From: Coriobacteriales bacterium
Lineage (GTDB): Bacteria > Actinomycetota > Coriobacteriia > Coriobacteriales > UBA8131
DNA: 47,702 bases
Assembly: GCA_031263025.1 (NCBI GenBank)
Contig: JAISGO010000012.1
Coordinates: 1-47,702, forward strand
Direction of reading: 5' to 3'
Shown: positions 7,620 to 33,307 of the stretch, piece after piece
Layout: every line of letters starts with the position of its first letter
Position numbering within the stretch: position 1 is the first letter of the stretch
Notes under the pieces: generated by a model
What the model was told of the DNA's origin: nothing
The model's database searches: none
Seen by the model: only the letters and a program-made list of their open reading frames with translations
Made by a program: the position numbers and the translations under genes

Positions 7620-8085
7620 AGATAAGGTCGCGAGTTGGCAAAGCGGCTCAGCGGCAGAGACCATCGCCTTAGGGCGTACTTTCGCGCAATCCTTGCTGCC
7701 TGCTGACGTCGTCTTGCTCTGTGGCAGGCTCGGCGCCGGTAAGACCCAGTTCGTCAAGGGAGTAGCGCAGGGCTTGCAAGTGGCTGAACCAGTGCTGAGC
7801 CCGACTTTTAACCTTGTCCTGCAATATCCGGCGCTGACCGCAGCCGGGCTGAGTGTGACCCTCAACCATTTCGATCTCTACCGTCTGGAGCGTGCAGACG
7901 AGCTCGACGACTTCGATTATTTCGGTATGCTGGCTGATCCGGCTGCGATCAACTTGGTTGAATGGGGGGATAAATTCCCTGCCGCCCTGTCTGGCCGCTA
8001 CTATCGTTTGGATTTCAGTGAGCCCCAGGGCCATTGTAGGAAGATCGAATTGACGTGTTACAATGGTGCCAGCTGTTGTCAATAA
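7600..8085 (+). CDS. tsaE: tRNA threonylcarbamoyladenosine biosynthesis ATPase TsaE
   Basis: GRLGAGKTQFVKG, SPTFNLV, HFDLYRLERADEL. Confidence 0.92.
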   Translation: MTNLQSEDKVASWQSGSAAETIALGRTFAQSLLPADVVLLCGRLGAGKTQFVKGVAQGLQVAEPVLSPTFNLVLQYPALTAAGLSVTLNHFDLYRLERADELDDFDYFGMLADPAAINLVEWGDKFPAALSGRYYRLDFSEPQGHCRKIELTCYNGASCCQ

Positions 8086-8111
8086 AACAAGCACGCAAAG
8101 GAGAGATGTAT

Positions 8112-8435
8112 ATGCCTGTAGCAGAACTTACCACTGCGAACTTCGACACTGAGGTCTTGCAAAGCGATACCCCTTACTTGGTGGACTTCTGGGCAGCCTG
8201 GTGCGGCCCCTGCCGACAGTTCTCTCCGATTGTCGATGAGCTGGCTGAGGATATGTCAGATAAGATCAAGGTGGGCAAGCTCAATGTCGACGAGAACCCT
8301 GAGATCGCCCAAAAATACCGGGTGATGAGTATCCCGGCGGCTATCCTCTACAAAGACGGAGAGGTCATCATGCAAAACGTCGGCGCCGTGCCGAAGAATG
8401 TAATCGTCGACCAGATCGACCAAGCTTTAGAATAG
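8112..8435 (+). CDS. trxA: Thioredoxin
   Basis: WCGPC active site in a thioredoxin fold; AAAGGAG 8 nt upstream of ATG 8112. Confidence 0.93.
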   Translation: MPVAELTTANFDTEVLQSDTPYLVDFWAAWCGPCRQFSPIVDELAEDMSDKIKVGKLNVDENPEIAQKYRVMSIPAAILYKDGEVIMQNVGAVPKNVIVDQIDQALE

Positions 8436-8476
8436 ACGAGGGCTAGCTAATCCCTAGTCTCGGAAGAAGGTAACAG

Positions 8477-8731
8477 ATGTGCACCAACGGGGTCAATACC
8501 CAACAACTCAAAGACACTATCACACAAATCGACGAAGCGGTCGCACTTTGCCGCAAATGGACGCATCGGGCTTATCATTCTGCGGACAATGCCCAGTTTG
8601 AGCAGTCCGCTGCCAAGTTGGCCGAGGCGCAGGCTGGGTTAGACGAGGTGCGTGCCCTGTTCAGTGACATCCAAGACGTGATTGATGACGAAGACGCTGC
8701 TTTGCCGGGAGTGACGGTCACTTCGGTTTAA
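8477..8731 (+). CDS. Hypothetical 84-aa protein
   Basis: ORF with upstream GGAAGAAGG; no recognised motif. Confidence 0.5.
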   Translation: MCTNGVNTQQLKDTITQIDEAVALCRKWTHRAYHSADNAQFEQSAAKLAEAQAGLDEVRALFSDIQDVIDDEDAALPGVTVTSV

Positions 8732-8797
8732 GCGAGGCGAGAGGTTGTCTGTCGGATGTTTCCGCTTGCGGCCTCTGTTTAGTCTAAGGGCATTCTG

Positions 8798-10987
8798 ATG
8801 GCCGCAGTCGATATATTCGTCACTGGCGTGGTGCAGGGGGTGGGCTTCCGCCCCTATATCTATCGTCTGGCCCGCAGCCTAGCCGTCAAAGGTTGGGTTC
8901 TCAACCAAGATCAGGGCGTGCATATCCATGCCGAAGCCGACCATGACACCCTGGACAGCTTCTATGCCGCGATCAAGCCCGGGGCACCGGCGGTCGCCCG
9001 AGTTGACGCGTTACGCAGGGCGCCGGCCTCGGTAGAAGGCTGCGCTGACTTCAGTATCCATCTCTCCGAGCAGACCGGTCAAAAGTCAATCCAGGAACGG
9101 ACTTTGGTCGGGCCTGACCTTGCGATTTGTGAGGATTGCCTGCGCGAGCTACATGACCCAAATGATCGGCGCTACCATTATCCTTTCATCAACTGCACCA
9201 ACTGCGGTCCGCGCTATACCATCATCGACGACCTGCCCTATGACCGGGCCCAGACCGCGATGGCTGATTTCGAGATGTGTTCCGAGTGCCAAGCTGAATA
9301 CGATGACCCCTCAAACCGTCGTTTCCATGCCCAGCCTGATGCCTGTTTTAGCTGCGGCCCTCATCTCAATGCCAGCCATACCCGCGAGGAGTCCGACGCC
9401 GAGATCGTCCGAGCCGCCGCTTGCCTGCGTAAAGGTGGCATCGTCGCCTGTAAGGACCTGGGTGGCTACCACCTGCTTTGTGACGCGACCTCAAAGGCAG
9501 CTATCAAAGTCCTGCGCAAACGCAAGCAGCGTCCGGACAAGCCGCTGGCCATACTGATTAGCGATGCCCTAAGCGAGCAGCTCGCGCTGCATAGGCGTCA
9601 ACGCGAGGTTTTGCGTTCAAAGGCGCGGCCTATCCTGCTTCTGCCTAAGCACCTGCTTGCACCGCTTAATCTGGCTCAGTCGGTCGCCCCGGCTTTAGCT
9701 GAGGTCGGAGTGATGCTGCCTGCGACTGCCTTGCAGTATCTCCTGATTGAGGCTTTTGGCGCACCGCTGGTGGCGACTTCCGGCAATGTCTCCGGTGCGC
9801 CCATCATCGGGGACAATACTGAGGCCCATCAACGCTTGGCAGCAGTCGCGGATTTCTTCCTCGACCACGACCGGGCGGTGCGCAGCCGCTATGACGACAG
9901 CGTGGTACGGCTCAATCAGGCAGATGAGGTTTCTTTTATCCGTCGGGCCAGGGGCTACGCGCCTTTGCCAGTAGTCGGCGCCCTGCCGCCCGAGATCCAG
10001 GAAAACGGTCAGATCATCGCTTTCGGAGCGCAGATGAAAGCGACTTTCTGCCTAATTGCACCTGACCCGGGTAAAAAGCGCTACCAGGCTTTTGTCTCTC
10101 AGCATCTCGGTGACCTCGCTTCTAAGGAAGCCCAAGACAACTATCTCGCCACCTTGATGCATAACCGTCGCCTGGTCGGCGCTAACCCGGTCGCGGTGGC
10201 CTGTGACCTGCACCCGGGCTATTTCACCACCAAGCTCGCTCAATCCTTTCAGGCAAAGTACGGCTTCCCTTTGATTCAGGTCCAGCATCATCATGCCCAT
10301 TTCGCTGCCTGTCTAGGCGAACATGACTTCTTCGGCCAGGCAATCGGGGTCGTCTTCGATGGCACTGGCTATGGCGAGGATGGGAGTATCTGGGGCGGTG
10401 AGATCCTCTGCGGCTCGATCGCCCAGGTTAGTCGCTTTGCCCATTTGCCCAATTTTAAGCTGGTCGGAGGAGACGCGGCCGTCAAGCATCCCCTTCATAC
10501 TGCCTATGTCCTCACCCATGATCAGACTTTGCTGACAAAATCCGAGCGCGAACTACTAGACGCCGCCCTAGCAAGCGGCCAAGGGGTGCTCGAATGCAGC
10601 TCGGCTGGGCGCCTCTTTGATGCCAAGGCTGCCGCCCTTGGTGTCTGTAGTGAGCCAAGCTACGATGGACAGGCGGCCTGTGAGCTTGAGGCCCTGCTTT
10701 GGTCTGAGCGAGCTGACCCGGATCTACGTGCTCAGGCTCTGCTCTTCCATCAACAGATGCGTGATTTCATCTTGGCCGAGTGTGAGGCGGCCCGCAGTCA
10801 AACCGCACTGGACACCGTGGCTCTCTGTGGCGGCTGCTTTAACAACCGTTGGCTTTGCCATGAAGTCAAAGCCAACCTCGAACAGCGTGGCTTCAAGGTC
10901 TTGTTGCCGCGACAACTTCCCTGTGGCGACGGCGCTATCAGTTATGGCCAGGCCTTGGTGGCCCTTTGCCAAGCCGGTCGGGAGTGA
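8798..10987 (+). CDS. hypF: [NiFe]-hydrogenase maturation carbamoyltransferase HypF
   Basis: Acylphosphatase N-terminus (VQGVGFRPYIYRLA), zinc fingers CxxC, YrdC-like domain, VQHHHAH motif. Confidence 0.95.
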   Translation: MAAVDIFVTGVVQGVGFRPYIYRLARSLAVKGWVLNQDQGVHIHAEADHDTLDSFYAAIKPGAPAVARVDALRRAPASVEGCADFSIHLSEQTGQKSIQERTLVGPDLAICEDCLRELHDPNDRRYHYPFINCTNCGPRYTIIDDLPYDRAQTAMADFEMCSECQAEYDDPSNRRFHAQPDACFSCGPHLNASHTREESDAEIVRAAACLRKGGIVACKDLGGYHLLCDATSKAAIKVLRKRKQRPDKPLAILISDALSEQLALHRRQREVLRSKARPILLLPKHLLAPLNLAQSVAPALAEVGVMLPATALQYLLIEAFGAPLVATSGNVSGAPIIGDNTEAHQRLAAVADFFLDHDRAVRSRYDDSVVRLNQADEVSFIRRARGYAPLPVVGALPPEIQENGQIIAFGAQMKATFCLIAPDPGKKRYQAFVSQHLGDLASKEAQDNYLATLMHNRRLVGANPVAVACDLHPGYFTTKLAQSFQAKYGFPLIQVQHHHAHFAACLGEHDFFGQAIGVVFDGTGYGEDGSIWGGEILCGSIAQVSRFAHLPNFKLVGGDAAVKHPLHTAYVLTHDQTLLTKSERELLDAALASGQGVLECSSAGRLFDAKAAALGVCSEPSYDGQAACELEALLWSERADPDLRAQALLFHQQMRDFILAECEAARSQTALDTVALCGGCFNNRWLCHEVKANLEQRGFKVLLPRQLPCGDGAISYGQALVALCQAGRE

Positions 10988-11063
10988 ATCTGTACCCCTA
11001 GCTTGCGCTACGCACTTCTTTTTAGGCCTGGCAGCTATCTCACTGTTCAGATAGAATAAGAGC

Positions 11064-11312
11064 ATGTGTTTAGCGATTCCGGTAAAGATCATAAAGATCG
11101 GGGCAGACGGTAGGGCCGAAGTCGAGAGCGGCGGACTGCAGCAGAGTTGCATCCTCGACCTGTGTCCTAAGGCCAGCGTCGGGGACTATGTCTTGATGCA
11201 TGCCGGCTATGCAATCGAGGTGGTCGCCCCTGAAGAAGCTGCCGAGACCTTGTCTCTGATCAAGGAGATGGAGGATCTAGTCTGCGCCGACGAAGCAGGC
11301 GCTCGTGCCTAA
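11064..11312 (+). CDS. hypC: Hydrogenase maturation chaperone HypC/HybG
   Basis: MCLAIPVKI N-terminus, GDYVLMHAGYAIE. Confidence 0.95.
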   Translation: MCLAIPVKIIKIGADGRAEVESGGLQQSCILDLCPKASVGDYVLMHAGYAIEVVAPEEAAETLSLIKEMEDLVCADEAGARA

Positions 11313-12327
11313 ACACTGGCGGATCATGGAGGTGTGCGGCTCGCACACCATGGCAATCGCGCGCTTCGGCCTAAAGCAACTCCTCCCAGATGGGGTAGAG
11401 CTGATTAGCGGACCTGGCTGCCCGGTCTGTGTGACTGCCAATGCCCAGATCGATACCGCTATCGCCTTAGCTCGTAGGCCTGAGACGATTATCTGCAGTT
11501 TCGGTGATATGCTGCGCGTGCCGGGTTCGAGCTCATCTCTAGCCAACGAGAGAGCGCATGGCGCCGACGTAAGGGTGGTGTATTCACCAGCCGACGCCCT
11601 TGACATCGCAGCCTGCAATCCGGCTCAAACGGTCGTTTTCATCGGCGTGGGCTTTGAGACGACGGCGCCGCTGAGCGCCGCGACCATCAAAAGAGCCAAA
11701 ACCCGCCAGCTTGATAATTTCTGTTTGTTCTGCGCTCATAAGTTGGTGCCACCGGCCTTGGCGAGCCTGGCTGGCGCGGCCGAGGTGGCAGTCGACGCCT
11801 TCCTTTTGCCTGGACATGTCTCGACCGTGATCGGCCTCGAGCCCTATCGTTTCCTCGCTACCCATTATCACCTGCCGGGTGTGGTCAGCGGTTTCAGCGC
11901 AAATGAGATCCTACAGGCGGTCGATGCTATCCTGCACCAGTTGGTGGCAGATACGGCCAGCATAGAGAACGCTTATCCGGCGGGCGTACGTGAGCACGGC
12001 AATCCGACTGCTCGAGCCCTCCTCGAAGAGGTCTTTCAGCCGGTTGACTGCGATTGGCGTGGCCTAGGCCAAATCGAGGCTTCTGGCTTGGCTTTAAGGG
12101 CGGAGTATGCAAGTTTCGATGCCTGTAGACGTTTCCCGGATTTATCAGTTGAGCCCACCCGTGAGGCCCGTGGTTGTCGTTGTGGGGATGTGCTCAAAGG
12201 TCTAATCAAGCCAACCGAGTGCCCTCTTTTCGACCATGGCTGCAGTCCGCTTCAGCCAATCGGGCCTTGCATGGTTTCCAGCGAAGGTTCTTGTGCGGCT
12301 GCCTATAAGTACCGTGAGTGTTCTTAA
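11305..12327 (+). CDS. hypD: Hydrogenase maturation protein HypD
   Basis: MEVCGSHTMAIARFG, GPGCPVCVT, GFETTAP; GTG start overlapping hypC. Confidence 0.95.
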   Translation: MPKHWRIMEVCGSHTMAIARFGLKQLLPDGVELISGPGCPVCVTANAQIDTAIALARRPETIICSFGDMLRVPGSSSSLANERAHGADVRVVYSPADALDIAACNPAQTVVFIGVGFETTAPLSAATIKRAKTRQLDNFCLFCAHKLVPPALASLAGAAEVAVDAFLLPGHVSTVIGLEPYRFLATHYHLPGVVSGFSANEILQAVDAILHQLVADTASIENAYPAGVREHGNPTARALLEEVFQPVDCDWRGLGQIEASGLALRAEYASFDACRRFPDLSVEPTREARGCRCGDVLKGLIKPTECPLFDHGCSPLQPIGPCMVSSEGSCAAAYKYRECS

Positions 12328-16797: not shown

Positions 16798-17805
16798 CTA
16801 ATGAATCCCGACAGGAATTCCCTTCCCTGCATAGATTCTAGCAAGTCCTTGCATCTTTGCGTCGCTTGGCACGGGGGCCTCAAAGATCGTCTGTTTCCAG
16901 AAGATCTTCTCGTATTTGGCGGCACCAAGGGCATGATAGGGGAGTAGTTGTACCATGCTCACGGCCGAGCCGAGCTGCTTGATGAAGTCAGCCATCCTTT
17001 CTTGGGTGGCCTCGTCGTCGTTGAATTGGGGAATGGTCGGGATCCGGATCTGGATCTTGGGTTGTAGCGGTGCGTCAAGCTCTGCGAGGTCACGGCAAGC
17101 CTGGGCTAATTTCTGCAGGTTCTCTAAGATCAGTTCGTTGGGCACGCCGGTCGCCTGCTTGTGCGGGGCGCTATCGATGTGCTTCATGTCATAGAGGAAG
17201 GTATCGCAGACCGGTAACATTTGCTCGATCGTCTCCCACTTCGCATAGCCGGTGGTGTCGAGGGCAGTGTTGAGCCCTTCGGCCTTGGCGGCAGCTAACA
17301 GGGCATGGGCATAAGTGTGTTGGGAGAGGGGCTCGCCGCCTGAGACGGTCATGCCGCCGCCTGATTTCTCGTAGTAGGAGCGATCTTTTAAGACGAGCTT
17401 GATGACTTCTTCGACCCCGCGGCGCTTGCCGCAGATCTCCAGCCCCTCGGGCGGGCAGGCCTCGGCGCAAAGCCCACAGCTGTCGCAGACGTCGGTGTCG
17501 ATCTGGGGGATGGTCAGGTGGCGTTCGCCACCTTCTGCTTCGGGATCAGCCTTGACGAAGTCGACCGCTTTGATTGCGCCAAGCTCTGCCTTGGGGCAGG
17601 CCGCCATGCACTCAGCGCAGAGGTCATAACCGAGACAGGACATCTTGGAGATGGCGATTTGGGGCTTTGGGCTTTGCGACTCAGGGCTATGGCACCATAG
17701 ACAGCGCAGAGGACAGCCCTTGAGGAAGACCGTAGTGCGGATGCCGGGGCCATCTTGGACGCTATAACGTTGGATATCGAAGACGATGCCTTGTACTGTT
17801 TCCAT
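16798..17805 (-). CDS. Glycyl-radical enzyme activating enzyme (radical SAM), activase 1
   Basis: VQDGPGIRTTVFLKGCPLRCLWCHSPES (CxxxCxxC), two ferredoxin-like Cys clusters, GGGMTVSGGEPL; start METVQGIVF at 17805. Confidence 0.93.
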   Translation of the reverse strand: METVQGIVFDIQRYSVQDGPGIRTTVFLKGCPLRCLWCHSPESQSPKPQIAISKMSCLGYDLCAECMAACPKAELGAIKAVDFVKADPEAEGGERHLTIPQIDTDVCDSCGLCAEACPPEGLEICGKRRGVEEVIKLVLKDRSYYEKSGGGMTVSGGEPLSQHTYAHALLAAAKAEGLNTALDTTGYAKWETIEQMLPVCDTFLYDMKHIDSAPHKQATGVPNELILENLQKLAQACRDLAELDAPLQPKIQIRIPTIPQFNDDEATQERMADFIKQLGSAVSMVQLLPYHALGAAKYEKIFWKQTIFEAPVPSDAKMQGLARIYAGKGIPVGIH

Positions 17806-17849
17806 GTCCCTAAATATAGTAGAGAGGCTATAGAGTTTTCCTAACATCT

Positions 17850-17877
17850 TGCACAAAAGCTGGTTGTTTCTTGTGCA
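17850..17877. promoter_or_regulatory. Inverted repeat TGCACAA-N14-TTGTGCA in the activase1/GRE1 divergent intergenic region
   Basis: Perfect 7-bp arms with about two-helical-turn spacing. Confidence 0.5.
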
Positions 17878-17907
17878 TACTTCACAAAGACGAAAGCAAC
17901 AGGCTTC

Positions 17908-17940
17908 TTTTTGGAGCGATTTGCGCCAAATCGCCAAAAA
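17908..17940. promoter_or_regulatory. 33-bp near-perfect palindrome TTTTTGG(A)GCGATTTG-CGC-CAAATCGCCAAAAA
   Basis: 15-bp arms with one bulged base between divergent activase1 and GRE1 genes. Confidence 0.6.
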
Positions 17941-18067: not shown

Positions 18068-20530
18068 ATGTATGAGTTTTCACCCGTCAGTCCGCGCGTA
18101 AAGAAGATCCACGAGCGGGTACGCAACCGTGTGGTGCGCGTGGACAGCGAACGGGCCCGGATCGTGATGGAGTCCTATAAGGCCAACCAGAACCTACCCT
18201 GGGTGCTGAAGATGCCGACCGCGACCAAGGATGTCTGCTTGAAGAAGACTTGCTGCGTCGATGATGACCAGATCTTCGTCGGCAACCACGGCGCCAGCGA
18301 GTTCGGCTCGCCGGACTGGGCGGAATGGGACGGCTGCGACTGGATCGTGGCCGAAATCGACGCCGACACCGATAAGCCCGAAGATGAGCGTGAGTGGCAT
18401 CTCGAAGAAGACGGTCTCTACCACAACAGCGATCCTAACGTGAAGATGTCGATCTCCCCGGATGACGTCGAGATTATCCGGGCGATGAAGCCTTTCTGGG
18501 ACGTCAACCGGGTGACTGCGGGCTGCCAGGCGGCCAAACCGGAGATGTTCGACTACCTGGCCAAGATGGGCGTCTCCGAGACTCGCCCCGGCCAACCGGT
18601 ACCCAACCTACCTTTTGGCCATTTCATCTGCCATCATGAGAAGATTATCGACGAGGGCTATGCTGCGATCAAGCAGAGCTGCCAGGATTGGCTGGACGCC
18701 CATGATGACGCCCTGCTCGGCGAAGACGTCGGCAAGAGCCTCTTCTATCGCGCTGAGATCCTGATCTGTGACGGTGCTATCGGTATGATTAAGAACTACG
18801 CCCAGGCCTGCCGTGATAAGGCGGCTGGCACTGCCGACCCTGCCCGCAAGGCTGAGCTGGAGAAGATGGCCGAGGGCTTGGACTGGATCTCCGAGAAACC
18901 TGCCCGCAACTTCTGGGAGGCCCTACAGGCTGCCCTGCTCTATCACATCGTGATCTACGCCGAGGCCAAAGAGCCCGCCCTGGCGCTTGGCCGGGTCGAC
19001 CAATACGCGGGGAAATTCCTGGTCAAGGAGCTCGATGAAGGCACTCTGACCTTGGAGCAGGCCCAGGAGATCGTGGACTGCTTCTTCCTCAAGTCCAACT
19101 GTTTCTACAACGCCGCTGCCAAGATCGTGACCAATATCACCGGTGCCGGCAACACCTACCAACATACCACCATCGGCGGGGTCAAGCCTGATGGCAGTGA
19201 TGCCTCCAACCCGATGACCTACATGGTGCTTGAGACCATCGGCCGGCTCTCCATGCACGACCCCTCGATCTCCTTCCGCTGCCACAAAGGCACCCCGGAC
19301 AAGCTCTGGGAGTGCGCCTTGGCCACCTCGCGCAAGGTCGGCGGTTTGCCGCTGTTCCAAAACGACGAAGTAGTGGTGCCGATGCTGCAAGACAAGCTCG
19401 GCTTCAGCCTCGAGGACGCCCGCAACTACGGCGTGATCGGTTGCCAGGAGTTCGTCGGCTGCGGTATGGACTGGCCAGAGCCTAACGGTATCCCGCCTTT
19501 CGCCTCGATCTGGTTCAACGCTATCTTCACTATGGCCATCAATGACGGCAAGAACCCAATGAACGGTTTCCAATCCAAGCTCCATACCGGCTTCCTCTAT
19601 GACATGAAGTCGATGGACGAGGTGCGCGACGCCCTGCGTAAGATGATTGAGCATTGCATGGGCTACATCGTCTCCTACAAGAACTGGGTCGAGCATTTCT
19701 ATAAAGAGCGCGCCCCGCTGGCGGCGATCTCGCTGGCCCAGGACGATTGCCTGAAGAACGGCAAGGACGTGATGAGTGGCGGTGCCCGTTATAACTCCTA
19801 TGGCGGTACCATGACCGGCATCGGCACCGTGGCTGATTCGCTCTCGACCATTAAGTATGCCGTCTTCGAGCATCAGATCTGCACCATGCGCGAGCTCTAT
19901 GACGCAGTCATGGACAACTGGGAAGGCCACGAGCAGCTGCAGGCCCGTATCCTGGCTGAGGTGCCCCATTATGGCAATGACGACCCCTATGTCGACGATG
20001 AGGTCAAATGGCTGGCTGATATGTATGTCGAGCTTTGCACCCACTATTACAGCGAGCGCTGCAAGGTCTATCGCCCCGGTCTCTATGGCGCCTCCGACCA
20101 CGTCAACCAAGGCTTCGTGACCTGGGCGACCCCCGACGGCCGTCAAAAGGGCACGCCTTTGGCTGATGCCACCTCGCCGGCCCAGGGCCGCGACAAGTCC
20201 GGCCCCACTGCCATCTTCAACTCGGCGGTGGCTTTCGACCACAACCAATTCCCGGACGGTTTGGCCCTCAACATTAAGATCCATCCCACTTCGGTGGCCA
20301 ACGACGAGGGCATGGACAAGTTGGAGAACCTGACCAAGACCTATTTCGACAACGGCGGCATGGAGGTCCAGTACAACATCGTCTCCTCCGACACCCTGCG
20401 CAAGGCCCAGAAGGATCCTGGATCCTACCGCGACCTGGTGGTGCGCATCGCCGGATTCTCGGCTTACTTCGTGGATATGGCGCCCGAGCTGCAAAACGAC
20501 ATCATCAGCCGTAACGAGGTTGAGGTTTAA
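18068..20530 (+). CDS. Glycyl-radical enzyme (PFL/GRE superfamily), GRE1, substrate unassigned
   Basis: Active-site loop VIGCQEFVGCGMDW (Cys codon 19442-19444), glycyl-radical motif VVRIAGFSAYF (Gly codon 20453-20455); SD GAAAGGAGG. Confidence 0.93.
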   Translation: MYEFSPVSPRVKKIHERVRNRVVRVDSERARIVMESYKANQNLPWVLKMPTATKDVCLKKTCCVDDDQIFVGNHGASEFGSPDWAEWDGCDWIVAEIDADTDKPEDEREWHLEEDGLYHNSDPNVKMSISPDDVEIIRAMKPFWDVNRVTAGCQAAKPEMFDYLAKMGVSETRPGQPVPNLPFGHFICHHEKIIDEGYAAIKQSCQDWLDAHDDALLGEDVGKSLFYRAEILICDGAIGMIKNYAQACRDKAAGTADPARKAELEKMAEGLDWISEKPARNFWEALQAALLYHIVIYAEAKEPALALGRVDQYAGKFLVKELDEGTLTLEQAQEIVDCFFLKSNCFYNAAAKIVTNITGAGNTYQHTTIGGVKPDGSDASNPMTYMVLETIGRLSMHDPSISFRCHKGTPDKLWECALATSRKVGGLPLFQNDEVVVPMLQDKLGFSLEDARNYGVIGCQEFVGCGMDWPEPNGIPPFASIWFNAIFTMAINDGKNPMNGFQSKLHTGFLYDMKSMDEVRDALRKMIEHCMGYIVSYKNWVEHFYKERAPLAAISLAQDDCLKNGKDVMSGGARYNSYGGTMTGIGTVADSLSTIKYAVFEHQICTMRELYDAVMDNWEGHEQLQARILAEVPHYGNDDPYVDDEVKWLADMYVELCTHYYSERCKVYRPGLYGASDHVNQGFVTWATPDGRQKGTPLADATSPAQGRDKSGPTAIFNSAVAFDHNQFPDGLALNIKIHPTSVANDEGMDKLENLTKTYFDNGGMEVQYNIVSSDTLRKAQKDPGSYRDLVVRIAGFSAYFVDMAPELQNDIISRNEVEV

Positions 20531-23551: not shown

Positions 23552-25963
23552 ATGTATCAGAAAAGTCCGATTACCGATCGTATCGCCTTTATCCGCAAGC
23601 GTTACCGTGATACCCTGCCTACGGTCACCACTGAGCGCTTCAAGATCATCACTGAGTTCTACAAGGCCCATCCGGATCTGCCGGCGATGAAGAAGCGTGC
23701 ATATGCTTTTAAAGCGCTTTGCGAGCAAATGCCGACCCCAATCCATGAGAACGAATTAATCGTCGGCAACGTCACTGCCGTCTATCGCGGCTCTGCCCTC
23801 TACCCGGATTGTTCTGATTGGATGTTCGAGAACTTCCACCAGATCGATCCGCGTGAGCGCGACCTCGACCCCTATGACATCACTGACGAAGACCTCGAAT
23901 ACATCTGGAGTGAGGAAGAGTTTTGGTCAAAGCACAACCTTTCCAAGACCATGGACGACTCGCTCACCCCGGGTTTTCATGACATCCTCGGTAACGGCGT
24001 CACCACCTTTGGCGACCGGGCCTGCTGCACCATGCCGACCGGTCATTATTGCGTTGACTTCGCCAGCGTGATCAATAAGGGCTTCAAGGCGATCGGCGAT
24101 GAGGCCCGGGCCAAGCTGGCTGCCATCGATGGCAAGCTCTATGGCGAGGACGCCAAGAAGGCCCAGTTCTATGAGGCAGTCTCGATCGTCTCTGACGCCA
24201 TCATCGTTTATGCCGAGCGCTATGCCGCTGAGGCCAAGCGTCAAGCCGAGGCCTGTTCTGATCCAGAGCGTAAGGCCGAGCTGGAGATGATGTCCGCCTC
24301 ACTCGACTGGATCTTCAAGAATCCCTGCCGCACCCTCTATGAAGCCACTGAGGCGACTTACCTCTACCAGACCGCCAGCGGCATGGCCGAGGCCCTGCAC
24401 GGCACCTCCTGGGGGCGGGCTGACCAATATCTGGGCGGATTCTATAAAGAGGACATCGAAGCCGGGCGCATCACTCCGGAGTATGGCCAGGAGATCATCG
24501 ACTCCTTCTGTCTGAAGATCTCCGAGACCAACCGGGTCTCCGCGGCCATGGTCACCTACGCTATCGGTGGCTATACCTCGGGCCAACTGCTTACTTTGGG
24601 CGGGGTTGACCGCCAAGGTAAGGATGCCACTAACCCCTTGACCTATATGTTCCTGCAGGCGGCCGATCGGCTCGACTTGCATGATCCGCCGATGTCCCTA
24701 CGTATCGATGACGACACGCCTGAAGACCTCTGGGAAGCCGCCATCGAGACCACCAAACGCCACGGCGGACTGCCTACTTTCCAGAGCGACAACGCCATCA
24801 TCCCGGCCCTTGAGAAGCGAATGTCCTTAGAGGATGCCCGTGACTACTGCTTGATCGGTTGTGTCGAGCCAGCTGGCTCGGGTAATGATTGGCCGGCTTG
24901 CGGCGGTGCCGGACAAGAGTCCTTCTGGTTACTCTCTGGCCTGATTAACCAGGCCATCAACAACGGGGAGAACCCGCAAAAGGACAAGGAGGGCAAGACC
25001 TCCGGTCAGACCGGCCCGGCTACCGGCTATCTCTATGAGATGAAGGATTTCGACGAGGTACTCGCGGCGGTCAAGACCCAGATGGATTATTGGGTCGACT
25101 GGCATGTCGCTTTCACTAATATCCATGAGTACGTGGTGGCTGAGAATGCCCCCTTGCCGGTGATATCGGCGGTGATGGACGGCTGCATGGAATCCGGCAA
25201 AGACGTCTCCTGGGGCGGTGCCGAGCACAACTCTACCGGTTTCGCCGGAGTCGGCCTGGGCACTCTGGTGGACAGTCTCGCCGTGATCAAGTACATGGTC
25301 TTCGACAAGAAGCTGATCGACGCCAAGGACTTCCTCGAGGCGGTCAACTCCAACTGGGAAGGCCAGGAGGAGCTGCGCCAGACCATTCACAAGATCGTAC
25401 CGCGCTACGGCAACGACGACCCCTATGTCGACGAGATCGCCAAATGGGTGGCCGATAACTTCGCCGAGAAGGTCAACTCCTGCACCGGTCCGCGTGGCAA
25501 CCATTTCTCCTGTGGCCTCTATCCGGTGGCCATGCACGTGCTCTATGGCATGATGTCTCCGGCTACCCCGGACGGGCGCAAGGCCGGCGAGCCCCTCTCT
25601 GACGGTATCTCGCCAGTGCAGCAGATGGACAAGTCAGGCCCGCTCTCGACCCTCAAGTCGACCAGCGTCTTTGACCATTCTAAGTTTCCTAACGGCACCC
25701 TGCTCAATATGAAGCTCCACCCCAAGTCGGTCGAAGGCGAGGGTCTGCATAAGCTCGAGGCTTTGATCAAGTCCTATATGGACCTCGGCGGTATGGAGTT
25801 ACAGTTCAACATCGTCAGCCCTGAGACTCTGCGCGACGCCCAGGCCAACCCTGAGGCGCACAAGGACCTGGTGGTGCGTATCGCCGGTTTCTCGGCCTAC
25901 TTCACCGAGCTCTACAAGGGCATGCAGGACGACGTGATCTACCGGACTGAAGTCGAGATCTGA
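23552..25963 (+). CDS. Glycyl-radical enzyme GRE2
   Basis: LIGCVEPAGSGNDWPACGG active-site loop; VVRIAGFSAYF glycyl motif; 803 aa. Confidence 0.93.
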   Translation: MYQKSPITDRIAFIRKRYRDTLPTVTTERFKIITEFYKAHPDLPAMKKRAYAFKALCEQMPTPIHENELIVGNVTAVYRGSALYPDCSDWMFENFHQIDPRERDLDPYDITDEDLEYIWSEEEFWSKHNLSKTMDDSLTPGFHDILGNGVTTFGDRACCTMPTGHYCVDFASVINKGFKAIGDEARAKLAAIDGKLYGEDAKKAQFYEAVSIVSDAIIVYAERYAAEAKRQAEACSDPERKAELEMMSASLDWIFKNPCRTLYEATEATYLYQTASGMAEALHGTSWGRADQYLGGFYKEDIEAGRITPEYGQEIIDSFCLKISETNRVSAAMVTYAIGGYTSGQLLTLGGVDRQGKDATNPLTYMFLQAADRLDLHDPPMSLRIDDDTPEDLWEAAIETTKRHGGLPTFQSDNAIIPALEKRMSLEDARDYCLIGCVEPAGSGNDWPACGGAGQESFWLLSGLINQAINNGENPQKDKEGKTSGQTGPATGYLYEMKDFDEVLAAVKTQMDYWVDWHVAFTNIHEYVVAENAPLPVISAVMDGCMESGKDVSWGGAEHNSTGFAGVGLGTLVDSLAVIKYMVFDKKLIDAKDFLEAVNSNWEGQEELRQTIHKIVPRYGNDDPYVDEIAKWVADNFAEKVNSCTGPRGNHFSCGLYPVAMHVLYGMMSPATPDGRKAGEPLSDGISPVQQMDKSGPLSTLKSTSVFDHSKFPNGTLLNMKLHPKSVEGEGLHKLEALIKSYMDLGGMELQFNIVSPETLRDAQANPEAHKDLVVRIAGFSAYFTELYKGMQDDVIYRTEVEI

Positions 25964-25990
25964 CCGAAAGCCAGTGCATGACAGACATTA

Positions 25991-26030
25991 CCAACCGGGC
26001 TTGTCACGGATAGGCCCGGTTGGTTCTTAT
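25991..26030 (+). terminator. Stem-loop/terminator between GRE2 and GRE3
   Basis: CCAACCGGGC-N13-GCCCGGTTGG followed by TTCTTAT. Confidence 0.7.
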
Positions 26031-26073
26031 CCAAGATCGAATACTTATTTGTCAAACGAAAGAAGCATCATCT

Positions 26074-28485
26074 ATGTATAAGAAAAGCCCCATCAGCGAA
26101 CGTATTGCCTCGATCCGCGAGCGTTATCGCAATACCGTGCCGACCATCATGACCGAGCGTTTCAAGATTGTCACTGAGTTCTATAAAGCCCATCCCGATC
26201 TACCGGCGATGAAGAAGCGCGCGCTGGTCTTCAAAGAGCTCTGTGAGAAGATGCCTACCCCCATCCATAAGCATGAGTTGGTGGTAGGCGATCTGACCTC
26301 CATCTATCGTGGAAGTGCCCTCTATCCGGATTGCTCGGCTTGGATGTTCGAGAACTTCCGCGTGACCGACCCCCGCGAGCGTGAGCTCGACCGCTATGAG
26401 GTAAGCGACGAGGACCTTGAATACATCTGGAGTGAAGAGGACTTCTGGCTCAAGAACAACCTCTCACACAAGATGGATAACTCGCTTACCCCAGGGTTCC
26501 ACAAGATCGTCGGCAATGGGGTCACCACTTTCGGCGATAAAGGTTGCTCGACCATGCCGACCGGTCATTATTGCGTCGACTTTGAGTTGGTCATCAACAA
26601 GGGCTTCAAGGCGATCGGCGATGAGGCCCGTGCCCATCTGGCCGCGATTGACGGCAAACTCTATGGCGAGGACGCCAAGAAAGCCCAATTCTACGAGGCC
26701 ATCTCTATCGTCTCTGACGCTATGTTGACCTATGCCGAGCGTTACGCCCAAGAAGCCGACCGCCAAGCCGCCGCTTGTGAATATCCGGAACGTAAAGCCG
26801 AGCTTGAGATGATGGCCAAGACCCTGCGTTGGATCTTCAAGAACCCCTGTCGCACCCTTTACGAGGCAGTCGAGGCGATGTACCTCTACCAGACGGCATC
26901 GGGACTTTCTGAGGCTTTGCATGGTACCTCTTGGGGCCGGGCCGACCAGTATCTGGGTGGATTTTATCAAGAGGATCTCGAAGCCGGACGTATCACCCCG
27001 GAGTACGGGCAGGAGATCATCGATGCTTTCTGCTTGAAACTTGCCGAATCCAATCGCGTCTCAGGTTCTGAGGTGACCTACGCCAACGGTGGCTATACCT
27101 CAGGGCAGCTGATCACCCTAGGCGGGGTCGGACGCGACGGCAAGGACGCCACTAACGCCCTCACCTATATGTTCCTCCAATCAGCCGACCGGCTCGACCT
27201 GCACGATCCGCCGATGTCCGTACGTATCGACGATGACACTCCCGAAGAGCTCTGGGAAGCCGCCATCGAGACCACCAAGCGCCACGGCGGCCTGCCTACT
27301 TTCGAGAGCGACAACGCTATCATCCCAGCCCTGGCAAAGCGCATGTCCTTAGAGGATGCCCGTGACTACTGCTTGATCGGCTGCGTCGAGCCAGCAGGTG
27401 CTGGCGACGAGTGGCCGGCCTGCGGTGGTTCCGGCCAGGAGTCCTTCTGGCTGCTCTCCGGTCTGGCTAACCAGGCCATCAACAATGGTGAGAACCCCAA
27501 GAAAGGTCCGGACGGCAAGACCACTGGCCAGACCGGGATCGCGACCGGCTATCTCTATGAAATGAAGGATTTTGACGAGGTCTTGGCTGCTGTCGAGAAG
27601 CAGATGGACTACTTTGTGGACTGGCATATCGCCTTCACCAATATCCATGAGTACGTGGTGGCCGAAAACGCCCCTCTGCCGGTGATCTCGGCGGTGATGG
27701 ATGGCTGCATGGAATCCGGCAAAGACGTCTCCTGGGGCGGCGCCAAGTACAACTCGACCGGCTTCGCCGGAGTCGGCTTGGGCACTCTGGTGGACAGTCT
27801 CGCCGTGATCAAGTACATGGTTTTCGACAAGAAGCTGATCGACGCCAAGGACTTCCTTGAGGCAGTCAACTCCAACTGGGAAGGCCAAGAGGAGCTGCGC
27901 CAGACCATCCATAAGATCGTGCCGCGCTATGGCAACGACGACCCCTACGTCGACGAGATCGCCAAGTGGGTGGCGGACAAGTTCTCGGCCAAAGTCTCGG
28001 CTGCGACTGGTCCGCGTGGCAACCACTTCGCCCCTGGCCTTTATCCGGTCGCCCTACACGTGCTCTATGGCATGATCTCCCCGGCTACCCCGGACGGCCG
28101 CAAGGCCGGCGAGCCCCTCTCTGACGGCATCTCGCCGGTGCAGCAGATGGACAAGTCGGGGCCGCTCTCGACCCTCAAGTCGACCAGTGTCTTCGACCAT
28201 TCGGAGTTTCCCAACGGCACCCTGCTCAATATGAAGCTCCACCCCAAGTCGGTCGAGGGCGAGGGACTGCATAAACTCGAGGCTTTGATCAAGTCCTACA
28301 TGGATCTCGGCGGCATGGAACTGCAGTTCAACATCGTCAGCCCTGAGACCCTGCGCGACGCTCAGGCCAACCCTGAGGCGCACAAGGACCTGGTGGTACG
28401 TATCGCCGGCTTCTCAGCTTACTTCACTGAGTTGTTCAAAGGTATGCAGGACGACGTGATCTACCGTACCGAAGTCGAACTGTAA
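26074..28485 (+). CDS. Glycyl-radical enzyme GRE3 (tandem paralogue of GRE2)
   Basis: 803 aa from ATG 26074, same length as GRE2 and highly similar throughout; LIGCVEPAGAGDEWPACGG; VVRIAGFSAYF. Confidence 0.93.
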   Translation: MYKKSPISERIASIRERYRNTVPTIMTERFKIVTEFYKAHPDLPAMKKRALVFKELCEKMPTPIHKHELVVGDLTSIYRGSALYPDCSAWMFENFRVTDPRERELDRYEVSDEDLEYIWSEEDFWLKNNLSHKMDNSLTPGFHKIVGNGVTTFGDKGCSTMPTGHYCVDFELVINKGFKAIGDEARAHLAAIDGKLYGEDAKKAQFYEAISIVSDAMLTYAERYAQEADRQAAACEYPERKAELEMMAKTLRWIFKNPCRTLYEAVEAMYLYQTASGLSEALHGTSWGRADQYLGGFYQEDLEAGRITPEYGQEIIDAFCLKLAESNRVSGSEVTYANGGYTSGQLITLGGVGRDGKDATNALTYMFLQSADRLDLHDPPMSVRIDDDTPEELWEAAIETTKRHGGLPTFESDNAIIPALAKRMSLEDARDYCLIGCVEPAGAGDEWPACGGSGQESFWLLSGLANQAINNGENPKKGPDGKTTGQTGIATGYLYEMKDFDEVLAAVEKQMDYFVDWHIAFTNIHEYVVAENAPLPVISAVMDGCMESGKDVSWGGAKYNSTGFAGVGLGTLVDSLAVIKYMVFDKKLIDAKDFLEAVNSNWEGQEELRQTIHKIVPRYGNDDPYVDEIAKWVADKFSAKVSAATGPRGNHFAPGLYPVALHVLYGMISPATPDGRKAGEPLSDGISPVQQMDKSGPLSTLKSTSVFDHSEFPNGTLLNMKLHPKSVEGEGLHKLEALIKSYMDLGGMELQFNIVSPETLRDAQANPEAHKDLVVRIAGFSAYFTELFKGMQDDVIYRTEVEL

Positions 28486-28496
28486 AATAATAATTT

Positions 28497-28531
28497 GCCT
28501 CGGGGGCGATCAGGCCTCCGAGGCTGTTTTT
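28497..28531 (+). terminator. Intrinsic terminator after GRE3
   Basis: GCCTCGGGGG...CCTCCGAGGC (one mismatch) followed by TGTTTTT. Confidence 0.75.
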
Positions 28532-28559: not shown

Positions 28560-29606
28560 ATGGTAAATATAGACACAAGGGGACTGACTTACGACGTCCA
28601 GGGTTTCACCGTCCAGGACGGGCCGGGCATCCGCACCACGGTCTTCCTCAAAGGTTGCCCCCTGCGTTGTCTTTGGTGTCACAGCCCTGAGTCGCAGCGT
28701 TTCGACCCCCAGATCTCCTATATGAAGATGCGCTGCGTCGGCATCGATGAATGCGGGCTCTGCCTTGCGCCGGAAGTCTGTCCGCAAGCCGCGATCAAAG
28801 CAGGGGAGTGGGTCGACAAGCCGGCTGAGCCAGGGGTGCAGATCCAACTGCCCGAGCTTGACCGCGGCAAGTGCGATGATTGCGGGCTCTGCGCGGAGAA
28901 ATGTCCGACTGAGGCCCTCTTCATGGCCGGTGAAGAGTGGTCGGTAGATCGTCTGGTCGAACGCCTGCTCAAAGACAAGACCTTCTTCGAGCATTCCGGT
29001 GGGGGAGTGACTATCTCCGGTGGCGAACCGCTTTCCCAGCATGATTTTACTCTGGCGGTGCTTAAGCGCCTGCATGAAGAGGGCATCCATACCGCACTTG
29101 ACACTACCGGCTTCGCCAAGTGGGAGGTCTTGGCCGAGAGCGTGCCTTACACCAATCTTTATCTCTATGACCTGAAGAACATGGACTCCAAGCAGCACGA
29201 GCAGGGCACTGGCGTGCCCAACCAGCTGATCCTCGAGAACTTGGAAAAGCTGGGCCAGGCCTGCGCCGACTTCAACCGCAAGAGCATCGGCGACTATTCG
29301 AGTGCCGCAGTGGCGGCTGCCGACCCGCGCCAGGTGGCCCAGATCCAAGTCCGGGTGCCGGTCATCCCCAACTACAACGATAACCCAGCTAATTTCGAGG
29401 TCATGGCAAAGTTCTGCCAGAAGCTCCAAGCCAATGGGGCGCTTAAGATCATCCAGCTTCTGCCTTATCACAACCTCGGCGTCGCCAAGCACGAACGCAT
29501 CCTCACCCAAGGCCAGATCTTGGAGGCTCCCAATATGGACGATAGCCACGTTGAGCCTTTGGCTGAGATACTACGTCAGGCTGGCCTACCGGTGCAGTTG
29601 CATTAG
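28560..29606 (+). CDS. Glycyl-radical enzyme activating enzyme (radical SAM), activase 2
   Basis: VQDGPGIRTTVFLKGCPLRCLWCHSPES, ferredoxin-like clusters, GGGVTISGGEPL. Confidence 0.93.
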   Translation: MVNIDTRGLTYDVQGFTVQDGPGIRTTVFLKGCPLRCLWCHSPESQRFDPQISYMKMRCVGIDECGLCLAPEVCPQAAIKAGEWVDKPAEPGVQIQLPELDRGKCDDCGLCAEKCPTEALFMAGEEWSVDRLVERLLKDKTFFEHSGGGVTISGGEPLSQHDFTLAVLKRLHEEGIHTALDTTGFAKWEVLAESVPYTNLYLYDLKNMDSKQHEQGTGVPNQLILENLEKLGQACADFNRKSIGDYSSAAVAAADPRQVAQIQVRVPVIPNYNDNPANFEVMAKFCQKLQANGALKIIQLLPYHNLGVAKHERILTQGQILEAPNMDDSHVEPLAEILRQAGLPVQLH

Positions 29607-29624
29607 AACAAGATGCGAGGGAAA

Positions 29625-30290
29625 ATGATGACGCAAAAGGACGGAAAGCAAGAAGGCGCTGAACTAAGGCCGACTCCCGAGTTACTTGACCAGATTGCTA
29701 CACGTGAGTGGCAGATGTTGCAAGAGGTCAACCAAGGCGGCCCGCGGGCCGAATGTCAGGACTCACCTCAGACCTTCAAGGCTATGCGCGAGGGACAGTT
29801 CGCGGTTTGGTCAAAATCTGCCGCTGAGTCCTATCTGCAGGACCTGAAAGACGCTGAGCAGACGGGACGCAATTTAGTCCGGGAAAAATATGTGAACATG
29901 ATGCTCTTGGGTCAGACCTGCATGAACACTGATTATCTGCCCCTGGCTTCGCCACGCAGACAAAAAGTCGTCGAGCTGAGCACTTCTGTGGCTGACCTGC
30001 TTGTCCAGGAAAACACTGCCATCTTGTCTCGTTATCCCCACTTGGCGCCTTTGATGCGCCCTGTCGAACAGGCCGGCGATGACCAAGATCATACCTCTAT
30101 AGAGACCTACCTACGGGGAGAGCTCCTCACTTATTCAGAGACGACCCTCGAGCTCCTGCTCCAATGGGTCACGCAACTTGAGCGCGAGGGGCGCGATTAC
30201 GCTAAGCAAGTGTTGACCAATTCCCTGCGCTTTAACGGTTTCAGAGACTTAGCCCAAGCTGACGCTGCGGTTGCCCATGCCCAGCGCTGA
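29625..30290 (+). CDS. DUF4125-like protein
   Basis: Sequence ATREWQMLQEVNQGGPRAECQDSPQTFKAMREGQFAVW recalled as DUF4125-like; not verified by search. Confidence 0.65.
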   Translation: MMTQKDGKQEGAELRPTPELLDQIATREWQMLQEVNQGGPRAECQDSPQTFKAMREGQFAVWSKSAAESYLQDLKDAEQTGRNLVREKYVNMMLLGQTCMNTDYLPLASPRRQKVVELSTSVADLLVQENTAILSRYPHLAPLMRPVEQAGDDQDHTSIETYLRGELLTYSETTLELLLQWVTQLEREGRDYAKQVLTNSLRFNGFRDLAQADAAVAHAQR

Positions 30291-31107
30291 CCTGGATAAT
30301 CTGCTCGCGCGCATTGACTCTATCTTAGGCCACGCTGACAAACAGTTAGTTGACCAGCAGTTAAAGTCGCTGCTCGAGCAAAGTGAGGCGGACGACCCTT
30401 TAAGCCCGGCCACACTCTGTCTGCTCAACGAGTATGCGGGTTGGCTACGCGGTGTCAGCCGTTTGACTGAAGCCGAAAGTTACTTCCAGATATTGCTAGA
30501 GCGAATTGCCGACTGCCCAGGCGACCAGGGAGTGGCGCGAGCCAATGCCTTGGTCAATATCGCTGGTTTGCGCCGCTTACAAGGCGACCCCGAGGGGGCC
30601 TTGGCCCTTTGCGATGAGGCCGCAACCTTAAGCGAGGGTAAGGCACATGCCGATGTCTATCTTGACGCTGCCATCCTGAACGCCCGTCTTCTGGCTTACA
30701 TTTCTGCTGGTAACTGCGAAGCGGCCTTAAGCTGTGCACACAGCTTATTGGAAAACCTCCAAGGCAACCCCGAAACCGACGACCATGAATTAGCCACTGC
30801 CTATAACAACCTAGCAGCGCTGGCCATGCGCGCAGGAAAACTTGAACAGGCCGAACAAGCGGCGGATAAAGCCCTGCTCATCTACCAGCAGATGCCAGAG
30901 GAAAATATCCACCACGGTAGTGCGCTGGCGACGCGCGGCTCGATCCATCTCAAGAAGGGAGAATATACAGCTGCGCTGGAAAGCTTCGAGCAGGCACTCC
31001 CTTTGATCAGGCGATACTTCGGTGAGAACCAAGAATATGCACAAGCGGTAAAGCTACGCGACCTTGCCCTGCGCGAGTGTGAACCCTTTAGAAAGGACGA
31101 GCGATGA
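30277..31107 (+). CDS. Tetratricopeptide-repeat protein
   Basis: Repeated TPR-like helices (AYNNLAALAMRAGKLEQAEQAADKAL; GSIHLKKGEYTAALESFEQAL); overlaps the upstream gene. Confidence 0.8.
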   Translation: MPSADLDNLLARIDSILGHADKQLVDQQLKSLLEQSEADDPLSPATLCLLNEYAGWLRGVSRLTEAESYFQILLERIADCPGDQGVARANALVNIAGLRRLQGDPEGALALCDEAATLSEGKAHADVYLDAAILNARLLAYISAGNCEAALSCAHSLLENLQGNPETDDHELATAYNNLAALAMRAGKLEQAEQAADKALLIYQQMPEENIHHGSALATRGSIHLKKGEYTAALESFEQALPLIRRYFGENQEYAQAVKLRDLALRECEPFRKDER

Positions 31108-32066
31108 AAGCCCTGCAGCTTTCCCGTGAATATTGTATGGGAACATTCCTGCCTGCTTTCCGCGCTGCTTATCCTGACGTGGCAGCGCAGACCGCCTTTG
31201 GCTTGGCCGGCAACGGATCAGAATGTTTCGGTTACGACGATGAATGGTCGCGGGATCACGATTGGGGCGTGGACTTTTTTTGTTGGCTGCCCGATGACCT
31301 CGCTACTGACGGCCAAGGACAAGCTAGCGCCTTACTCAGAGAACTCGGACAGTGGCGGACCGATTTCCTGAAGCATAATCCCCCTAGTGCTCTGCGGCTA
31401 GAGTCCAGCTATAGCCGTGCGCGTGGCGTGATCGCGGTGGGGGACTTCTACCGACAGTTGATCGGTGTAGCGGGCTGTCCAGGAGAGCTCAGCCAGTGGC
31501 TGCGTATTCCTGAGCCTAATCTCGCCCTGGCCGTCAATGGCGAGGTCTGGCAAGACGGCGCTGGTGACTTCAGCCGTATCCGCCGCGAGCTGCTACAGTT
31601 TTACCCTGAGGACCTGCGCCTCAAACGTCTGGCCGCCAGATGCATGGAAATCGCCCAGACTGGCCAATACAACTTCGAAAGGACGGGCAAACGCAGCGAA
31701 TGGCTGACCGTTAAGTTGATCTTGGCCCGCTTTGCCGAAGCCGTGATCGCCGTAGTTTTCTTGCTTAACAAAATCTATCGTCCCTACTATAAATGGGCGG
31801 CGCACATGATGTATGGCTTGCCCCTCCTGGGCAGTCCGGTCAGCCAGGCCCTCCAGAAGCTTTTCCTGCTCGACCCGGCCAAGACGCAGGAACGCAAGGC
31901 ATCTTCGCTGATCATTGAAGAGATCTGCGCTTTGCTCGTAGGCGAGCTCAATCGCCAAGAACTGACCACAAGCGGTGAGGTTTTTCTCACTGTTCAAGGC
32001 CAGGAGCTACAAGCCCGGATCAAGGATCCGGCTTTGGCAAAACTTCCTGCTCAGTATCTCGTATAA
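31104..32066 (+). CDS. DUF4037-like protein with nucleotidyltransferase-like N-terminus
   Basis: AFGLAGNGSECFGYDDEWSRDHDWGVDFFCWLPDD resembles a pol-beta-type GS...D-x-D motif; overlaps the TPR gene by ATGA. Confidence 0.65.
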   Translation: MKALQLSREYCMGTFLPAFRAAYPDVAAQTAFGLAGNGSECFGYDDEWSRDHDWGVDFFCWLPDDLATDGQGQASALLRELGQWRTDFLKHNPPSALRLESSYSRARGVIAVGDFYRQLIGVAGCPGELSQWLRIPEPNLALAVNGEVWQDGAGDFSRIRRELLQFYPEDLRLKRLAARCMEIAQTGQYNFERTGKRSEWLTVKLILARFAEAVIAVVFLLNKIYRPYYKWAAHMMYGLPLLGSPVSQALQKLFLLDPAKTQERKASSLIIEEICALLVGELNRQELTTSGEVFLTVQGQELQARIKDPALAKLPAQYLV

Positions 32067-32076
32067 AGGAGAAAAA

Positions 32077-33009
32077 ATGCTTACAGACAAGCCCCAAATC
32101 CTGGTCATCGGCGGTAGTTATTTCCTCGGTCGGGTCTTTTGCCGGCTCTGCTCTGAGGGCGGCCTTGCCGACCTCTTCGTGATCAACCGCGGTCGCTACA
32201 AGCTTGATCTGCCTGGTGTGAGGGAGTATCAAGCTGACCGACACGATGCCTCCTCGCTAGACCACATCGTTAAAGAAGAGCTCATCAGACAGGACTTTGA
32301 TGCAGTTGTCGACCTCTGTGCCTACCAGCCTGGCGACATCGCCGCCTTACTCAATCTTGTCAAGGGGCGTTGTAATCGCTACGTTTATGTCAGCACTTCG
32401 AGCGTCTATCAAGCAAGCGATATAGCCAAGGACGAGGACGCCCCTTTGTTGGATGAGTTCCCCGCAGGTGAAGTCGGCAGCTATGTGCAGGATAAGCGTT
32501 ATCTGGAAAACGAGCTCGATTGGGGCAGCGCCCAAGTTGACATGGACTACACGGTATTCCGGCCGAGCTTCATCTTCGGTCCCTACAACTATGCTCCCCG
32601 TGAATCCTGGCTGATCGAGCGGATCATAAAGGGTCAGCCTGTCCCTTATCCAAGTGACGCCAGCGCCAAGTTCAGCATGGTCTATGTCAGTGATGCGGCC
32701 CGCGCCCTGATTGCGGCTGCAACGAGTGAGCGAAGTGGAAAACAGCTCTACAACCTGGCGAGTCCTGAACAGATTGACTATGACCGGCTTTTCCAAGAGC
32801 TTGAGCTGCAGAATGGTCAAAGTTTCCTTCGTAATCCGATGGGTATAGAGAAGATCATCGAGGACAACGTCGGTTTAGCCTTCCCCCTCGATCAAAACGA
32901 CTTACTTGACGCTAATCGTTTCACGCGCGACTTCGAATTCAGCTGGACTCCTTTCAGCGAAGGCATGCGTAAGACCTTTAAGGCCTTTAAGGCGGTGTTC
33001 ACAAAATAG
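32077..33009 (+). CDS. NAD-dependent epimerase/dehydratase (extended SDR)
   Basis: ILVIGGSYFLGRVFCRLC Rossmann start, YVYVSTSSVYQ; SD AAAGGAG upstream of ATG 32077. Confidence 0.85.
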   Translation: MLTDKPQILVIGGSYFLGRVFCRLCSEGGLADLFVINRGRYKLDLPGVREYQADRHDASSLDHIVKEELIRQDFDAVVDLCAYQPGDIAALLNLVKGRCNRYVYVSTSSVYQASDIAKDEDAPLLDEFPAGEVGSYVQDKRYLENELDWGSAQVDMDYTVFRPSFIFGPYNYAPRESWLIERIIKGQPVPYPSDASAKFSMVYVSDAARALIAAATSERSGKQLYNLASPEQIDYDRLFQELELQNGQSFLRNPMGIEKIIEDNVGLAFPLDQNDLLDANRFTRDFEFSWTPFSEGMRKTFKAFKAVFTK

Positions 33010-33112: not shown

Positions 33113-33136
33113 CATTGACAATGTTTTTCGCGTAGG

Positions 33137-33220
33137 AAAAATCACCCAGATCGTATGAGCATCGGACCGAAGTTACCTGGCGGTGATGAGGTCCGATGCG
33201 AATGCGAGCTGGGTGATTTT
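33137..33220. terminator. Long imperfect hairpin, candidate bidirectional terminator or structured RNA
   Basis: Arms AATCACCCAG/CTGGGTGATT with flanking A/T runs, and GCATCGGACC/GGTCCGATGC; 21-nt loop. Confidence 0.7.
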
Positions 33221-33231
33221 AACAAGCGAAA

Positions 33232-33307
33232 TGGAGCGGCGGACGGGACTCGAACCCGCAACAATCAGCTTGGAAGGCTGATGCTCTACCAATTGAACTA
33301 CCGCCGC
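33232..33307 (-). tRNA. tRNA-Gly (anticodon TCC), CCA encoded
   Basis: Reverse complement GCGGCGGTAGTTCAATTGGTAGAGCATCAGCCTTCCAAGCTGATTGTTGCGGGTTCGAGTCCCGTCCGCCGCTCCA folds as a cloverleaf; anticodon loop CTTCCAA. Confidence 0.95.

Follow-up and report, generated by a model that had tools for sequence, protein, structure and literature searches.

Two glycyl-radical enzymes (GREs) are encoded in tandem on the plus strand of the window, by which we mean the whole stretch of 47,702 nucleotides analysed here. GRE 1 (23552..25963, 803 aa) has the PFL-like and Gly_radical domains (PF02901, E 5.5e-170) and is 86% identical to GRE 2 (26077..28485, 802 aa). Both score below every NCBIfam equivalog cut-off, the best match reaching 554.8 of 678.2 bits (TIGR01774). 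Within the tandem (23552-28485) the C-terminal third, including the radical domain, is nearly identical, which suggests a recent gene conversion. The pair is followed on the same strand by a radical-SAM GRE activase (28560..29606; TIGR02494, 307 bits against a cut-off of 174), and directly 3' of it lie four genes, also on the plus strand, that the preliminary description had taken for a tightly coupled group. Their coordinates, overlaps and Pfam matches bear this out, and the operon was confirmed at the positions first proposed.

The first gene of this quartet (29625..30290) encodes a DUF4125 protein (PF13526, E 5.8e-53). It begins, after a gap of 18 nt from the end of the activase at 29606, with an ATG behind GCGAGGGAAA; an alternative in-frame ATG is found at 29613. 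The following gene (30277..31107) encodes a TPR protein (PF13424, TPR_12, E 3.1e-21) and overlaps the first by 14 nt, starting with the ATG at 30277, while the earliest start in its frame is a TTG at 30271. The third (31104..32066), coding for a DUF4037 protein (PF13228, E 9.3e-35), starts with the ATG at 31104 in a 4-nt ATGA overlap with the TPR gene. The last (32077..33009) codes for an SDR or NAD-dependent epimerase-fold protein (Epimerase, E 2.5e-19) and has its ATG at 32077 behind AAAGGAG, 10 nt downstream of the DUF4037 gene. An HMM search matched both DUF families above their cut-offs, with 179.9 bits against 25 for DUF4125 and 119.8 bits against 22.1 for DUF4037.

We have scanned species genomes with a DUF4125 alignment and taken the best 80 loci, which span Actinomycetota, Bacillota, Thermodesulfobacteriota, Chloroflexota and Pseudomonadota. 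Most of these best 80 loci have TPR, DUF4037 and DUF4125 close together, in collinear order or as fusions, usually on the same strand. DUF4037 and DUF4125 form a single polypeptide in 25 of the 80, TPR is fused to DUF4037 in many others, and one locus (L049) has a TPR-DUF4125 fusion. The grouping of these genes in the window is not due to chance, as the three families recur together across several phyla. Their recurring co-location and fusions lead us to consider them one functional unit, the module in what follows, in which the TPR protein would act as partner or adaptor. DUF4125 is also found without DUF4037 (L031, L054, L119 and L123-L129), and therefore cannot depend solely on the transferase. 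One of these loci (L119) has DUF4125 together with TPR. In L123-L129, from two families of actinobacteria, the DUF4125 gene stands alone, with neither TPR nor DUF4037 nearby.

A model of the window DUF4037 protein obtained with AF2 from the single sequence was unusable (pLDDT 41.8), and for this reason we have folded in its place the region covering DUF4037 and DUF4125 in a natural fusion protein (L096), using 101 aligned rows that included the window proteins. This homologue is 32% identical to the window DUF4037 protein and gave a model with a pLDDT of 95.7 and a pTM of 0.85. The first 11 Foldseek matches in the PDB were all nucleotidyltransferases (LinB, the kanamycin or ANT(4') type, and 3c18), with target TM of 0.40-0.55; their E-values of 0.02-0.12 are modest, and the call draws on the probabilities (0.99-1.00) and on the consistency of the matches. 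The predicted fold, as modelled on this homologue, is that of the pol-beta-like nucleotidyltransferase superfamily, with a HEPN-like helical C-terminal part. It agrees with a sequence classification that places DUF4037 with the HEPN families, under the name "Aminoglycoside_NT_C / DUF4037", and notes occasional TPR fusions (PMC3710099). The window protein is a member of the PF13228 family entered there, and the entry is silent on DUF4125 and GREs. The search of viral folds with the module model returned weak nucleotidyltransferase matches at most.

The predicted active-site motif, GNGSECFGYDDEWSRDHD (31209..31262, plus strand), corresponds to residues 36-53 of the window DUF4037 protein and contains G38, S39, D46, S49, D51, H52 and D53. 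In window numbering, the G-x-x-G-x-G-S stretch, D46, S49 and D51-H52-D53 are invariant in 59 of 59 aligned DUF4037 rows. The superfamily motif, hG[GS] followed by DxD/E, is thus present as GxGSx(11)DHD (G38-S39 and D51-H52-D53 in the window). The resemblance to a pol-beta nucleotidyltransferase that had been noticed from the sequence is upheld by this motif and by the fold of the homologue, and the putative catalytic aspartates, whose loss in homologues would have spoken against it, are retained in all 59. The one exception lies beyond that set, in L131 (9063-10001, minus strand), where DHH replaces DHD in a DUF4037 protein that is possibly inactive. The likeness to kanamycin nucleotidyltransferase/ANT(4') and LinB is one of predicted fold (a nucleotidyltransferase domain followed by a helical C-terminal part) and of the GS...DxD/E motif, whereas identity is 9-14% and DUF4037 has C-terminal signatures of its own (AQxGQYNxxR and PYYKW). 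It also differs from these enzymes in its constant TPR and DUF4125 partners and in having no resistance context. Along these lines, a DUF4037 profile found nothing meaningful among PDB sequences, with no ANT or LinB chain matched up to E 10, and at the level of sequence DUF4037 does not belong to the ANT(4')/LinB family.

The DUF4125 protein is all-helical in the homologue model, and PDB and viral fold searches gave no structural match for it; a DUF4125 profile found no relative among PDB sequences. Many polar residues (E, C, Q, R, N, EKY, R and E) are invariant in 66 of 66 aligned rows and look like an active or binding site.

The fourth gene is less constant. Strong homologues of the SDR protein were found in 4 of 41 related genomes, all of them among the 6 of 41 that have DUF4037 (P 1.5e-4). 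The SDR gene adjoins module genes in the window and in two of these genomes (G018 and G040) and lies on a different contig in another (G027). It is a looser, optional yet real partner of the module in this order, and a homologue also adjoins module genes in L023, L031, L054 and L117. The L031 locus (7817-11882, one strand) has in a row the SDR, a flavodiiron protein, DUF4125, TPR and desulfoferrodoxin, with DUF4037 absent, and L054 has the SDR, a flavodiiron protein, DUF4125 and TPR together, also with DUF4037 absent. Both arrangements hint at oxygen or redox stress. Rubrerythrin, flavodiiron proteins and desulfoferrodoxin are neighbours in some module loci.

As for the GREs themselves, the module accompanies systems of very different chemistry. 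PflB-PflA-[TPR-DUF4037]-DUF4125 are contiguous in L024, and PflA is near the module in L095. A contiguous HpdB-HpdC-HpdA-TPR-DUF4037-DUF4125 array is found in L118, and two more loci (L119 and L138) have HpdB. CutC, the choline TMA-lyase, is found in L120, L122 and L139, and a microcompartment GRE in L121. The GREs are unassigned in L141 (contiguous TPR-DUF4037-DUF4125-activase-GRE-TPR), in L065, in L137 and in the window. The GRE of L137 (13897-16533, minus strand), near DUF4125, has its glycyl-radical end on a 98-aa ORF apart from the 772-aa body, through either a real split or a frameshift.

The preliminary description had named the lack of genomic co-occurrence with GREs as what would refute its proposal, and an association was found. 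We drew 297 genomes evenly from the phylum, and a Gly_radical protein is present in 12 of 12 genomes with DUF4125 and in 55 of 297 overall (P 6e-10); at the level of genera the figures are 8 of 8 and 38 of 199 (P 9e-7). In a draw of Clostridia the difference was not significant (12 of 12 against 228 of 291, P 0.05). A PFL-like enzyme was found in 37 of the 40 DUF4125 genomes reached via the loci, the remaining three being draft metagenome assemblies. Anaerobic lifestyle and kinship confound such genome-level counts, and for this reason the distance between genes weighs more than co-occurrence. Of 24 DUF4125 genomes from two random draws, 8 have a GRE no further than 10 kb from DUF4125, where 0.84 would be expected from gene number and genome size (P 7e-7). 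Excluding the window and one congener leaves 6 of 22, with 0.72 expected (P 5e-5). Both P values presuppose that genes are placed at random and use approximate GRE counts.

Two tests within single taxa remove much of the confounding. Among 45 genomes of one genus, CutC is above its cut-off in two, both with module genes about 9 kb away; DUF4037 and DUF4125 belong there to the same cut/microcompartment locus, together with TPR in one of them, and in this genus a GRE is found within 10 kb of 4 of 5 DUF4125 loci. Across the order, DUF4125 is present in 6 of 7 HpdB-like genomes (six above the HpdB cut-off and one below) and in 17 of 131 overall (P 1.3e-5), or by genus in 5 of 5 HpdB-like genera (P 1.5e-4), and it lies within 4 kb of the HpdB-like gene in 4 of the 7. 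The DUF4125 tree, from which L122 is absent, is poorly resolved: in its best version the 13 rows linked to GREs require 10 changes of label, of which strong branches force only 3, and the total is slightly below that of shuffles. The tree suggests, without proving it, that DUF4125 became linked to GREs repeatedly.

Most copies of the module do not adjoin GREs; the association exists, yet the module is not confined to it. In 16 of the 24 random-draw loci no GRE is found within 10 kb, and the flanks retrieved for the majority of the best 80 loci, every Bifidobacterium one included, contain neither a GRE nor an activase. Of the two possibilities considered from the beginning, a GRE-linked and a separate conserved module, each is in part correct, since the enrichment near GREs and activases stands and the module, with about two thirds of the random-draw DUF4125 loci lacking a GRE within 10 kb, also exists free-standing. 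The link that had been proposed for the whole quartet holds for DUF4125, TPR and DUF4037; fewer than half of the loci have the SDR.

A signalling or protein-modification role, as had been supposed at first, is what we infer for the module. Specifically, what we tentatively prefer, as a possibility rather than a probability, is that the TPR protein directs nucleotidylation to some protein that GRE systems share. The DUF4037 enzyme would move a nucleotide (AMP or UMP) onto a protein rather than onto a small molecule, the TPR protein would pick the target, and DUF4125 would be an obligate partner that controls, reverses or receives the modification. The loci that have DUF4125 in the absence of DUF4037 speak against this scheme. 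The target would most likely be the GRE or its activase, because nothing is common to the neighbouring GREs except the glycyl-radical domain, their activation and their sensitivity to oxygen. Its modification might switch off or shield the GRE during oxygen, redox or energy stress, and the SDR may sense the NAD(P)H state. The conceptual model for this proposal is offered by GlnE and GlnD, nucleotidyltransferases that modify proteins and by which a metabolic enzyme is switched with AMP or UMP; they carry other domains, and the likeness meant here is one of concept. That reversible nucleotidylation by a TPR-DUF4037-DUF4125 complex is a general post-translational control of PFL, choline TMA-lyase, 4-hydroxyphenylacetate decarboxylase and other GREs we consider rather unlikely.

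The same TPR-guided chemistry could serve anaerobes more generally, in regulation or under stress, with another metabolic target and with the vicinity of GREs as one recruitment among several. The loci without a GRE neighbour, which are the majority, the location of the Bifidobacterium copies in a GRE-free region and the redox-type proteins beside some loci are consistent with it. The recurrence of GREs of at least four chemistries beside the module and the way in which the module tracks CutC and HpdB inside single taxa argue against it, and we regard it as possible if somewhat unlikely. It is improbable that DUF4037 acts on some small molecule, be it a toxic intermediate, a substrate or a nucleotide signal, in the manner of ANT(4') and LinB, with TPR and DUF4125 as regulators. 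The nearest folds are indeed enzymes that modify small molecules (aminoglycosides, lincosamides), which would speak against the nucleotidylation of a protein. However, the substrates of the neighbouring GREs (pyruvate, choline, 4-hydroxyphenylacetate) are unrelated, so that no common small molecule is evident, and the constancy of the TPR partner points to a protein as the target.

Alternatively, DUF4037 might bind a nucleotide without transferring it and form with TPR and DUF4125 a scaffold for the folding or activation of GREs. The analogy would be BssE, thought to serve benzylsuccinate-type enzymes in this way, and TPR parts are chaperone-like. In the limonene-degrading Syntrophobacteraceae LiM6, LrcL (DUF4125) and LrcM (DUF4037) are encoded in an operon following the GRE chaperone gene bssE and are reported as expressed proteins, to which the authors give no function (PMC12583861). 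The same two families stand there, as in the window, beside a GRE-related gene, whereas the GRE class is a hydrocarbon-succinate synthase. The full conservation of the GS...DxD transfer motif would nevertheless argue for catalysis, and this alternative appears quite unlikely. To our knowledge, the characterised PFL, CutC and HPAD need no factor other than the activase, which also stands against it. A toxin-antitoxin-like pair, conceivable from the joining of a nucleotidyltransferase to a HEPN-like part (PMC3710099), is very improbable and was rejected, given that DUF4037 and DUF4125 exist as single-polypeptide fusions and that the RX4-6H RNase motif is marked "No" for the DUF4037 family in the same paper; PADLOC had no match for DUF4125 or DUF4037 either. 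The PADLOC search of the quartet for defence families gave generic TPR models only, with none for the SDR, which gives the quartet no place among the known anti-phage defence families.

GREs drive anaerobic gut chemistry, such as the formation of formate, trimethylamine and p-cresol, and they are destroyed by oxygen. Little is known of how cells control these enzymes other than through the activase. With a conserved enzyme module that accompanies GREs whose chemistries are unrelated, such control could be put to a direct test, and DUF4125 and DUF4037, two families present in numerous gut bacteria, bifidobacteria among them, would receive a function. In the openly available full-text literature DUF4037 and DUF4125 receive passing mentions, with no function assigned and no GRE association described, and no text was found that joins PFL with AMPylation or a GRE with a nucleotidyltransferase. 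The parts are of known kinds, and the GRE-associated module appears to be undescribed.

Other features of the window lie around the operon. A third GRE (18068-20530), also below every NCBIfam equivalog cut-off, has its own divergent activase (16798-17937, minus strand). Between GRE 2 and the activase, a hairpin followed by a T run (28497-28524) could attenuate the expression of the activase and the quartet relative to the GREs. Between the SDR gene and tRNA-Gly(TCC) there is a long and highly stable hairpin (33120-33235, -64.7 kcal/mol, z -9.8), which looks like a small inverted-repeat element, since two further full-length diverged copies (83% and 77%) are found elsewhere in the genome.
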